Of a stretch of 64,000 nt of DNA, positions 29,415 through 32,288 are shown piece by piece (position 1 is the first letter of the stretch; the number at the start of each line of letters is the position of its first letter). The position numbers and the translations under genes were made by a program. The stretch covers positions 2,843,001-2,907,000 of the forward strand of contig NZ_BLPF01000001.1 in assembly GCF_011764425.1 (NCBI RefSeq). The letters run 5' to 3'. The DNA comes from Phytohabitans houttuyneae. GTDB taxonomy: Bacteria > Actinomycetota > Actinomycetes > Mycobacteriales > Micromonosporaceae. The notes below the pieces were generated by a model. That model saw only the letters and a program-made list of their open reading frames with translations, made no database searches and had not been told where the DNA came from.

Positions 29415-30941
29415 ATGCTGTGTGAGCCGTACCTGCTCGACCCGACCCCGGACGGCGTGCACGTCGTCTGGCACACCGAGGCGCCCGGCTCCCACCACGC
29501 GGTGCTCGTCGGCCCGGCCGTCGCCGGCATGACCGAGGAGCGGGCCCGCGCGGCCGCCACCGGCACGCCGGGCGAGGGCGAGGGATGGCGCCGCTTCACC
29601 GCCGGCACCACCGAGCTGTCCCGCACCCGGGAGGACCAGGAGTCTTCGGTACCGGGCCGGGTGTACCCGATCGTCACGCGCCGCCCGGTCCACCGCCACC
29701 TGGCCACCGTCACCGGGCTGGCCGCCGGGCGGACGCCGTACCGGGTGGTCTCCGGCGGCACCGTCACGCAGGCGTACACGCTCGCGCCCGCGCCGCCGCC
29801 GGACCGGCCGGTGCGGCTGCTGCTCACCAGCGACCACCAGCTCAAGCCGATGGTCCCGGCCAACCTGGCGAAGGTGGCCGAGACCGCGGGCGTGACCTTC
29901 GACGGGGTGCTGATGGCCGGCGACATGGTGAACGCGCCGGACCGGGCCAGCGAGTGGTTCGACACCACCGCGGAGCCGCCGTTCTTCCGCACGTTCGAGC
30001 GGATCCTCGCGCACTCGCCGATCTACCCCGCGATCGGCAACCACGAGGTGATGGGGCGCTGGTCCGACACGGCGACGCTGGACGCGCAGTTCAACGACCC
30101 GCAGCCGGGCGACTGGAACATCACCACATACCAGGAGATGTTCCCCTACCCGCGCAGCGAGTCCGGCGGCCAGCGCTGGTGGTCCCGCACGATCGGCGAC
30201 GTGCACGTGATCTGCCTCTTCGCCACGCAGGTGTGGCGCACACCGCACCCGGAGGGGCGGGGCAAGTTCCAGGAGGCGCTCGAAGACGTCGACTGCCCCG
30301 AGCGGTGGGGCCACGGACAGTTCATCTTCGAGCCGATCAAGCGCGGCTCCAGGCAGTTCGCCTTCCTGGAAGGCGAGCTCGCGTCGCCGGCCGCCCGCGC
30401 GGCGCGCTACCGCGTGGTGATGTTCCACCACCCGAGCCATGGCCTGGGCAGCCACTCGGTGCCGCCCTACACCGACCCGGTCCGGGTGGTCGGCACCAAG
30501 TCCATCCGGTACGAGTACCCGCTCGCCGACGACTACATCCTGCGCGACGTGGAGCCGCTGCTCTCCGCGGCCGGTGTCCATCTTGTCCTCAATGGACACT
30601 CTCACGTGTGGAACCGCTTCCGGAACGCGGCCGGCGTCAACTGGCTGGAGACGTCCAATGTGGGCAACAGCTACGGCGCGTACGACGTGACCTCGGGCAT
30701 GACCCGCTGGTACCCGCCGGGCTACGTGCTTCAGGGCGACCCGGGTGGCCTGCAGCCGATCGTGCCGACGGTCGCGCCGTACGTGCGCTCCGACGGCGTG
30801 CCGCTGCCGTTCGTGGCGAGCAACGAGATCACCGTCTTTTCGCTGCTCGATTCGGCCGCGGGCGTCGTGCGGTCGTACCGCCACGACACCCGCCAACCGG
30901 CGTCACCGGCCGTGCTGTTCGACGAGTTCTCCCTCACCTGA
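29415..30941 (+). CDS. Calcineurin-like metallophosphoesterase
   Basis: A 508-residue protein with an N-terminal fibronectin-like or purple-acid-phosphatase-like region (WHTEAPGSHHAVLVG, ATVTGLAAGRTPYRVV) and a metallophosphoesterase core: LLTSDHQLK, LMAGDMVN, AIGNHEVMG, VVMFHHPSHG and LNGHSHVWN. These provide the Asp/His/Asn ligands for two metals. ATG 29415 (MLCEPYLLDPTPDGVHVV) is used; there is no signal peptide, so it acts in the cytoplasm unless exported another way. The substrate is not evident. Confidence 0.87.
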   Translation: MLCEPYLLDPTPDGVHVVWHTEAPGSHHAVLVGPAVAGMTEERARAAATGTPGEGEGWRRFTAGTTELSRTREDQESSVPGRVYPIVTRRPVHRHLATVTGLAAGRTPYRVVSGGTVTQAYTLAPAPPPDRPVRLLLTSDHQLKPMVPANLAKVAETAGVTFDGVLMAGDMVNAPDRASEWFDTTAEPPFFRTFERILAHSPIYPAIGNHEVMGRWSDTATLDAQFNDPQPGDWNITTYQEMFPYPRSESGGQRWWSRTIGDVHVICLFATQVWRTPHPEGRGKFQEALEDVDCPERWGHGQFIFEPIKRGSRQFAFLEGELASPAARAARYRVVMFHHPSHGLGSHSVPPYTDPVRVVGTKSIRYEYPLADDYILRDVEPLLSAAGVHLVLNGHSHVWNRFRNAAGVNWLETSNVGNSYGAYDVTSGMTRWYPPGYVLQGDPGGLQPIVPTVAPYVRSDGVPLPFVASNEITVFSLLDSAAGVVRSYRHDTRQPASPAVLFDEFSLT

Positions 30942-31034
30942 ACGGCCCACACCTCGCCGGTGATCCCGCCCACCCGATCACGCCGGTGCGCAAGCGGTCC
31001 GTAGGGGTTTCAGGAATGGGATATGATGCCGAGC

Positions 31035-31094
31035 GTGACCCGATGGTATGCGTGCTTTAGTTGGCCGGCGCTGGCGCCGGCGACTGAGGCATGA
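31035..31094 (+). CDS. Aromatic-rich leader peptide of the DAHP synthase attenuator
   Basis: The frame encodes VTRWYACFSWPALAPATEA with Trp, Tyr, Phe and Trp within seven codons. A TATGAT -10-like hexamer at 31022-31027 lies seven bases before GTG 31035, so the message may be leaderless; in-frame ATGs at 31023 and 31026 are alternatives giving MMPSVTRWYAC. The stop at 31092 is followed by palindromic sequence and a terminator hairpin at 31132, then DAHP synthase at 31233. Ribosome stalling at aromatic codons when charged tRNAs are scarce would favour read-through, as in trp attenuation. Confidence 0.75.
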   Translation: MTRWYACFSWPALAPATEA

Positions 31095-31131
31095 GCGCAT
31101 GACCTAGGTCACCACCCGCCAGAGCCGGCAC

Positions 31132-31156
31132 AAGGGCAGGAGAAACTCCTGCCCTT
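31132..31156 (+). terminator. Attenuator terminator upstream of DAHP synthase
   Basis: AAGGGCAGGAG (31132-31142) pairs perfectly with 31146-31156 around an AAA loop and is followed by TCGCG. It lies 38 bases after the leader-peptide stop and 77 bases before the aroF-like GTG. Competing GCCGGC segments at about 31065-31081 and 31124-31129 could form the alternative structure. Confidence 0.8.
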
Positions 31157-31232
31157 TCGCGCGTAACAACGACGCAGAGCCGGCTTCGGCCCCGGGACGC
31201 CGGCCCCGGGGTGGCTGGCGGAAGGACTTCCA

Positions 31233-32288
31233 GTGACTCTCCCGAGCGTGCAGCGGGTAAGTGACCAGCGGATCGACAAGGTCGTCCCGCTGGTGTCGCC
31301 CGCACTTCTACACCATGAGCTGCCCCTAGATGATGATCTCTCGGCTGCGGTGGTCGATGGTCGGCGTGCCGTCGCCCGCGTCCTGGACCGGGAGGACGAC
31401 CGCCTGATGGTCGTCGTCGGCCCGTGTTCGGTGCACGACCCCGTGGCCGCCCTCGAGTACGCGGACCGCCTCGCCGAGACAGCGGAGCGGCTTTCCGACG
31501 ACCTGCTCATCGTGATGCGGGTCTACTTTGAAAAGCCCCGCTCGACCGTCGGCTGGAAGGGGCTCATCAACGACCCCGGCCTGGACGGCTCCGGCGACGT
31601 CAACACCGGCCTGCGCACCGCGCGCTCGCTGCTGCTGCAGGTGTTGCGCAAGGGACTGCCGGTGGGCTGTGAGTTCCTCGACCCGATCACGCCGCAGTAC
31701 ATCGCCGACACCGTCTCGTGGGGCGCGATCGGCGCCCGCACCGTCGAGAGCCAGGTGCACCGCCAGCTCGCCTCCGGCCTCTCCATGCCGATCGGGATGA
31801 AAAACCGGCCGGACGGGGCGATCTCCACGGCCGTCGACGCGATCAAGGCCGCGGCGGTGCCGCACGTGTTTCCCGGCATCGACGTGTCCGGTACACCGGC
31901 GATCCTGCACACCCGCGGCAACGCCGACTGCCACCTCGTGCTGCGCGGCGGGCGGGGCGGCCCGAACTACGGCGCCGAGGATGTGGCCGGCGCACTCGGC
32001 CTGCTCCGCGCGGCCGGGCTGCCGGAGCGGCTGATCGTTGACGCCAGCCACGACAACAGCGGCAAGGACCACACCCGCCAGCCGATCGTGGCGCAGGACG
32101 TCTCCGCGCAGCTGGCCGCCGGCCAGCGCGGTATCGCCGGCGTCATGCTCGAGTCGTTCCTGGAGCCGGGACGCCAGGACCTCGACCCCACGCGCCCGCT
32201 CGCGTACGGCAAGTCGATCACCGACGCCTGCATGGGCTGGGACACCACCGTTCAGGTGCTGGAAGGGCTGGCGTCCGCCCACCGCTGA
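31233..32288 (+). CDS. 3-deoxy-7-phosphoheptulonate synthase, class I (DAHP synthase)
   Basis: A 351-residue enzyme that joins phosphoenolpyruvate and erythrose 4-phosphate at the entry of the shikimate pathway. Class I (AroFGH) motifs are VVVGPCSVHDP, RVYFEKPRSTVGWKG, IGARTVESQVHR, IGMKNRPDG and DASHDNSGKDH. GTG 31233 (VTLPSVQRVSDQRIDKVVPL) follows AAGGA. An N-terminal extension of about 60 residues is where feedback regulation by aromatic amino acids is set in this class. Expression looks controlled by the aromatic leader peptide and terminator directly upstream. Confidence 0.95.
   Translation: MTLPSVQRVSDQRIDKVVPLVSPALLHHELPLDDDLSAAVVDGRRAVARVLDREDDRLMVVVGPCSVHDPVAALEYADRLAETAERLSDDLLIVMRVYFEKPRSTVGWKGLINDPGLDGSGDVNTGLRTARSLLLQVLRKGLPVGCEFLDPITPQYIADTVSWGAIGARTVESQVHRQLASGLSMPIGMKNRPDGAISTAVDAIKAAAVPHVFPGIDVSGTPAILHTRGNADCHLVLRGGRGGPNYGAEDVAGALGLLRAAGLPERLIVDASHDNSGKDHTRQPIVAQDVSAQLAAGQRGIAGVMLESFLEPGRQDLDPTRPLAYGKSITDACMGWDTTVQVLEGLASAHR

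Follow-up and report, generated by a model that had tools for sequence, protein, structure and literature searches.

The class I DAHP synthase gene (aroFGH type) of Phytohabitans houttuyneae, at 31233-32288 on the plus strand with a GTG start at 31233, is preceded by a short open reading frame (ORF) rich in aromatic codons. Among 168 actinobacterial class I DAHP synthase genes, 136 have a leaderless-type aromatic leader of this kind in front of them, compared with 1 of 3360 dinucleotide shuffles, and the observation is thus real and not due to chance. Its best reading, which we hold to be probable, is ribosome-mediated attenuation that senses Trp, Tyr and Phe, with DAHP synthase as the putatively controlled gene.

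The window is the 64-kb stretch of DNA that was analysed. Read directly from its sequence, the GTG at 31035-31037 opens a 19-codon frame, MTRWYACFSWPALAPATEA, which is closed by the TGA at 31092-31094 (ORF 31035-31094, plus strand) and holds the aromatic codons W4 TGG, Y5 TAT, F8 TTT and W10 TGG. A −10 element, TATGAT (31022-31027, plus strand), is found 7 nt upstream of the leader GTG, and the distance from this GTG to the DAHP synthase start is 198 nt. We re-read the coordinates and letters that the first-pass annotation had given for TATGAT, the frame, the hairpin and the DAHP synthase start, and all were correct. No other short ORF of leaderless type that holds three or more aromatics occurs on either strand of the window, and the pattern of the leader, with up to one mismatch allowed, occurs a single time in the 11.3-Mb genome, where no second copy was found. 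The region 31030-31240 folds with a z-score of −6.47, and none of 200 shuffles folds equally well. A scan of 30500-31700 against Rfam gave six matches below the gathering threshold (E 0.086-6), none of them over 31035-31232; the leader itself matches no Rfam model, be it of a riboswitch, a T-box or a leader for Trp or Phe.

To delimit the occurrence of the leader, we collected class I DAHP synthase loci from 6 of 6 genomes of the genus, 269 of 300 of the family and 79 of 394 of the class, while from the search of named genomes the best 80 of the loci listed were taken. The scan demanded TANNNT at 6-8 nt from an ATG or GTG, a frame 8-40 codons long and three or more aromatics among codons 2-14; it covered 60 nt of the gene start in the real loci, and the shuffles were made without those 60 nt. 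Loci L209, L211, L215, L218 and L226 had no anchor, and L087 and L152-L156 were left out of the scan. The count becomes 136 of 169 with the Gryllotalpicola locus L073, which is actinobacterial and has no leader; since the loci are akin to one another, 168 is not a count of independent events. Leaders are present, among other taxa, in Micromonospora, Paractinoplanes, Catellatospora, Kribbella, Pseudonocardia, Amycolatopsis, Rhodococcus, Nocardia, Williamsia, Tsukamurella, Gordonia, Dietzia, mycobacteria, Glycomyces, Isoptericola and one Streptomyces, so that the three-aromatic leader peptide first noticed before DAHP synthase in the window is borne out and kept beyond Micromonosporaceae. Wherever a leader was found the relatives' leaders carry aromatic codons, which the scan itself required, and 32 of the 168 actinobacterial loci gave none. 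These 32 comprise all 23 loci of one family (f19) together with L010 (Nocardiopsis), L012, L024, L117, L177, L183, L192, L213 and L222.

We also built a covariance model (R1) from 24 Micromonosporaceae leaders, with L147 left out because of an insertion. It matched 67 of 121 family genomes at E ≤ 0.01. From genomes whose leaders were outside the training set we fetched 18 of the matches with E < 1e-4, of which one (L242) is apparently the same stretch as the already counted L013, and two weak matches. All 18 strong matches that were fetched precede class I DAHP synthase, and 14 of them show a leaderless aromatic ORF in the same scan, while the two weak ones (E 0.002 and 0.005) have neither DAHP synthase behind them nor an aromatic ORF. 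The leader of L232 (MACRESRWFGWPACG...) contains Trp and Phe but no Tyr, and is a naturally occurring case for asking which amino acid is decisive.

The first-pass annotation had placed a leaderless transcript start at GTG 31035. When ORFs were chosen without any promoter criterion (three aromatics, a TAT or TTT codon and the most downstream start), again 136 of 168 loci had one. Of these 136 ORFs, 108 have TANNNT at 6-7 nt from the start codon (88 at 7 nt and 20 at 6 nt), and each other spacing up to 24 nt is found in at most 8 ORFs; a Shine-Dalgarno-like site occurs upstream of just 1 of the 136. This spacing and the near absence of Shine-Dalgarno sites are as a leaderless start predicts, which supports the proposed position and suggests that the leader ORF is probably read from the first base of its messenger.

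The composition of the leaders points to all three aromatic amino acids. The scan demanded three aromatics of any kind; Trp, Tyr and Phe are all present in codons 2-14 of 107 of the 120 distinct leader ORFs (11 are without Trp and 2 without Phe). The order of the aromatics varies between clades, with YRWF, WYACF, FYWF, YWRF and YFWF among them. Tyr and Phe are written with TAT (131 codons, against 6 TAC) and TTT (124, against 14 TTC), that is, with TAT or TTT in 255 of 275 cases, whereas 71 neighbouring DAHP synthase genes have, over their first 300 codons, no TAT, 293 TAC, 6 TTT and 344 TTC, with TAC or TTC in 637 of 643. General AT-richness does not explain this bias, because the other degenerate leader codons mostly end in G or C (569 of 758, compared with 17 of 233 Tyr/Phe codons). 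UAU and UUU are read by wobble.

All 72 leaders compared from Micromonosporaceae share Phe8, Pro11 and Ala12, while position 7 is Cys instead of Trp in 4 and position 5 is Phe instead of Tyr in 6. The third codon encodes Arg in 59 of the 72, with an entropy of 1.83 bits at the third base compared with 0.67 and 0.71 bits at the first two (L147, which has an insertion, was left out of the codon entropies). Past codon 12, a conserved CCGGYGNC is read in two frames, by 43 and 29 of 73 Micromonosporaceae (in one it was not found), indicating that the tail of the leader is conserved as RNA and its head as codons. The change of Trp7 to Cys (TGG to TGC) is found in four of the six genus members; Trp4 and Trp10 are present in the window. 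The window's own Cys7 change (31055) is matched by a G at 31089, in the other arm of the ORF hairpin.

The RNA segments S1, S2, S3, T, S4, S5, S6 and S7 were defined on MAFFT alignments, and their pairings were examined with a cognate-swap test, in which the duplex energy of a locus' own two segments is compared with that of partners taken from other species. The loci were reduced to 85%-identity clusters in three groups (20 clusters of Micromonosporaceae, 32 of other loci with T and 14 of loci without T); the permutations leave relatedness in, for which the unsupported pairings act as controls. All coordinates are on the plus strand. The 5′ end of the predicted messenger, GTGACC (31035-31040), can pair with GGTCAC (31107-31112) in the stop region, forming P0, which beats swapped partners in all groups (p 0.0004, 0.0002 and 0.026). 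S1 (GCCGGCGCTGGCG, 31064-31076) starts in codon 10 and spans Pro11-Ala12, and S2 (GCCGGCGAC, 31076-31084), read in two frames among relatives, is the 3′ arm of the S1:S2 hairpin, whose swap values are weakly supportive (p 0.018, 0.015 and 0.085). S3 (CCGCCAGAGCCGGC, 31116-31129) has either S1 or S4 as its partner, and S4 (GCCGGCT, 31179-31185) either S3 or S6. S1:S3 gave p values of 0.0008, 0.0002 and 0.014, and S3:S4 of 0.0008, 0.0002 and 0.71, both segments of the latter hardly varying in the third group. Further downstream are the S5 hairpin (31190-31211), between S4 and S6, S6 (GGCTGGC, 31213-31219), immediately 5′ of the Shine-Dalgarno GGAAGGA (31220-31226), and S7 (CTTCCAG, 31227-31233), a possible pairing partner of the S6 region at the ribosome-binding site. 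With "no duplex" energies set to zero, S5 gave p 0.0008 and S6:S7 gave p 0.0098, 0.0072 and 0.0002. The S2:GUCACC stem reached p 0.0014, and S4:S6 is supported only outside Micromonosporaceae (p 0.985 in that family, 0.0004 and 0.0022 outside). Pairing of S1 with S4 (p 0.18, 0.78 and 0.41), of S2 with S4 (p 0.58) and of S1 with the 3′ arm of T (p 0.98) was unsupported by the test, and S2:S3 failed in two of the three groups (p 0.89 and 0.26), with a nominal value in the third (0.044). The power of the test is low in Micromonosporaceae, where the cores of S2, S3 and S4 hardly vary. Pairing of the tail of T with the Shine-Dalgarno sequence came first in the helix scan of this family, but was judged a pyrimidine/purine artefact (swap p 0.064).

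The swap test thus supports the competing helices S1:S3, S3:S4 and P0. S1:S3 and S3:S4 are mutually exclusive, and P0 and S1:S3 cross, by their coordinates. In 70 Micromonosporaceae, forcing S1:S3 costs a mean of 2.3 kcal/mol relative to the S3:S4 fold; the difference is at most 5 kcal/mol in 45 of them, and the S1:S3 fold is the lower one in 24, while in the window itself it is 9.6 kcal/mol higher. In an RNAalifold consensus built from 24 representatives, the Trp7-Phe8 codons lengthen the S1:S2 hairpin. The alternative GCCGGC helix of the first-pass annotation is upheld in part: cognate S1:S3 and S3:S4 beat swapped ones and the cores do change in other families (GGCTCC/GGAGCC), but all 24 Micromonosporaceae representatives have identical GCCGGC cores, which so cannot covary in that family.

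In the proposed mechanism, the messenger would start at GTG 31035 and the ribosome would load at its very 5′ end. By reading codons 4-10 it would test the supply of charged tRNA-Trp, tRNA-Tyr and tRNA-Phe, and the rare codons UAU and UUU, for which the bias is observed, should sharpen this test for Tyr and Phe. If one of the three were short, the ribosome would stall with the 5′ end and the hairpins' first arm beneath it; if none were short, it would pass S1 and S2 and reach the stop codon. The ribosome position would set whether S3 pairs upstream, with S1 or S2, or downstream, with S4. As its output, the switch may act on read-through of T, on access to the ribosome-binding site by way of S4, S6 and S7, or on both. 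Pathway logic and the Corynebacterium glutamicum precedent suggest that starvation would raise DAHP synthase, and the leader may in this way read the total aromatic status. Against this mechanism, the S1:S3 helix starts a median of 4 nt past the first base of the last aromatic codon, and stalls at Tyr5 and at Phe8 would hence not mask it equally. The cost of S1:S3 in the window, the 32 loci that gave no leader and, as set out below, the missing partner of the 5′ arm of T and the unchanged access to the Shine-Dalgarno sequence also weigh against it.

Between S3 and S4 lies T (31132-31156), a perfect 11-bp hairpin resembling an intrinsic terminator, with the arms AAGGGCAGGAG (31132-31142) and CTCCTGCCCTT (31146-31156) and the loop AAA. 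Its T run is short in the window (TTT at 31155-31157, two of them inside the stem, followed by CGCG). Among leader shuffles, a perfect hairpin with at least three T nearby reached at least 9 bp in 0 of 1000 and at least 8 bp in 4 of 1000. We sought T separately, since hairpin picking often took S4-S5-S6 instead. The perfect hairpin would suit a classical trp-type transcription attenuator, in which T ends transcription unless stalling lets an antiterminator form, a possibility that we regard as rather unlikely. The cognate arms of T beat swapped ones in both groups that have it (p 0.0002 in each), and a perfect stem of at least 6 bp with at least three T at its end is found in 61 of 73 Micromonosporaceae. 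The same criterion, however, holds for only 26 of 47 other T-type loci and for 0 of 16 loci, picked by eye and then checked by the hairpin-plus-T criterion, which keep the leader without T and have a direct S3:S4 hairpin (GAGCCGG...CCGGCTC) in 16 of 16. In addition, the 5′ arm of T pairs with neither S1 (p 0.43 and 0.54) nor S2 (p 0.26 and 0.18) better than swapped partners do, and with no upstream partner the classical antiterminator is missing; the initial view of the 11-bp hairpin as a terminator switched by an antiterminator was not sustained. The motif GGCAG/CTGCC in the stem (5′ arm, 31135-31139) recurs in many families, beyond what a hairpin alone needs.

Control at translation, in which the relay S1-S3-S4-S6-S7 would open or close the DAHP synthase ribosome-binding site and T would be a spacer or a constant partial terminator, appears rather unlikely. 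It would draw on the swap values of S1:S3, S3:S4 and S6:S7, and of S4:S6 outside Micromonosporaceae, and the parity of the relay gives an open site when the ribosome is stalled. Against it stand the lack of support for S4:S6 within Micromonosporaceae, the unfavourable S1:S3 fold of the window and the accessibility of the Shine-Dalgarno sequence, for which equilibrium folding with the ribosome on the last aromatic codon or on the stop gave no consistent change. The mean unpaired fraction, free versus stalled, was 0.59 versus 0.56 in 73 Micromonosporaceae and 0.46 versus 0.46 in 63 others, and pairing of this sequence is alike in the S1:S3 and S3:S4 folds (0.43 and 0.47). Another explanation is that the conserved peptide itself arrests the ribosome and senses free aromatic amino acid via the nascent chain, and not through hungry codons. 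Arg3 and Pro11-Ala12 are indeed kept besides the aromatics in Micromonosporaceae (59 and 72 of 72), but the Pro-Ala codons belong to S1, the aromatic order varies between clades, the RNA past codon 12 is kept in two reading frames and the rare-codon bias points to decoding, which makes arrest by the peptide improbable. That the leader is a chance ORF within a GC-rich palindromic region, for which the five copies of GCCGGC in 31022-31235 (at 31064, 31076, 31124, 31179 and 31199) might speak, is next to impossible, given its frequency in the real loci relative to shuffles and the 18 strong covariance-model matches fetched, every one of which precedes the same gene.

Attenuation by a ribosome that decodes the aromatic codons also has relatives among described systems. 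In C. glutamicum, aroF is preceded by a leader peptide (PMC4046766, PMC3890552), with Phe-Tyr-Phe as given in the available part of PMC4046766, and the leader of the window is therefore a variant of a known arrangement. Both place an aromatic-codon leader peptide before an actinobacterial DAHP synthase gene, and ribosome stalling is reported there for the aroR leader of the aroF operon. As far as the descriptions at hand go, aroR has Phe-Tyr-Phe, with no Trp mentioned, and a Phe response, whereas the window has Trp, Tyr and Phe, the rare UAU and UUU and competing helices. The aroR leader is said, citing Neshat et al. 2014, to respond to limitation of Phe and not of Tyr (PMC11802643, in the portion available), which argues against three-way sensing. 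In the accessible text on Streptomyces lividans, eight leader peptides (trp, leu, ilv and others) are described, most of them transcribed leaderless and none before DAHP synthase (PMC8079986). In these and in the ilvB leader of C. diphtheriae, the transcript begins at the leader start codon, as predicted for the window, while their amino acids and genes are other than the window's (PMC8079986, PMC5784534; both as partly available). In Acholeplasma, the uORFC-13-1 motif upstream of aroF likewise places Phe codons in a short ORF that precedes a DAHP synthase gene, but the excerpt describes a ribosome-binding site, another phylum, Phe only and a terminator adjoining the motif (PMC8632094). The LEU element upstream of actinobacterial leuA also combines a leader peptide with alternative RNA folds, including a pseudoknot, comparable with the crossing of P0 and S1:S3; there, the Leu codons pair with the Shine-Dalgarno sequence (PMC1262725, available sections). 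The same 2005 survey, in those sections, found that Phe and Tyr operons of the actinobacteria sequenced by that time had no conserved RNA structures upstream, and the present leader adds to it. Our literature search, which covered titles and abstract openings, returned no aromatic leader in Micromonosporaceae and no three-aromatic DAHP synthase leader. The study of Wolf et al. 2017 reportedly concerns Actinoplanes. The multivalent ilv attenuators of enterobacteria use a single leader to read several related amino acids; they resemble the present case in this respect and differ in being specific for branched-chain amino acids and in having a classical antiterminator.

We also scanned non-actinobacterial loci for an ATG ORF with at least six aromatics in codons 2-21 upstream of class I DAHP synthase. 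Such an ORF is found at 17 of 49 loci (17 of 50 if the misplaced L073 is included), compared with 22 of 2000 shuffles, and these 17 loci suggest that pooled aromatic leaders at DAHP synthase extend beyond the clade of the window. Trp, Tyr and Phe are all present in 13 of the 17, with TTT:TTC at 51:17 and TAT:TAC at 21:22; examples are FYFYFFWY in Burkholderia and kin and FYFWYYGF in Xanthomonas. We tentatively propose, as a generalization that is rather less likely than its absence, that leaders pooling all three aromatics govern the first enzyme of aromatic synthesis across bacterial phyla, and that the actinobacterial ones are leaderless, rely for amplification almost wholly on the wobble codons UAU and UUU and act via a relay of GCCGGC-type segments and not a terminator/antiterminator pair. 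On the reading as a three-way attenuator, the joint supply of Trp, Tyr and Phe would be signalled by a single short element at the committed shikimate step of many actinobacteria. That the leaders write Tyr and Phe nearly always with UAU and UUU, while the neighbouring genes avoid both, makes the choice of slow synonymous codons by an attenuator directly testable, and a start at the 5′ end of the messenger would make ribosome loading part of the switch. The non-actinobacterial loci with an aromatic-rich ATG ORF include L032, L037, L046, L053, L057, L058, L062, L067, L070, L078 and others, from Burkholderia and kin, Xanthomonas, Devosia, Hyphomicrobiales and an Anaerolineae MAG.

The assignment of the downstream gene to class I DAHP synthase is based on PF00793 (E 3.9e-88) and TIGR00034 (E 4.6e-140), and its best solved chains are Phe-sensitive DAHP synthases. 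Its Shine-Dalgarno sequence is 6 nt from the GTG, and the gene upstream of the leader encodes a calcineurin-like phosphoesterase. The same genome has class II DAHP synthase matches at two places, with no leader of this type within 700 nt upstream of them. The second of these matches (L153, L154; G000:C1:565026-566156) is split in two pieces, each in a 417-aa open frame.
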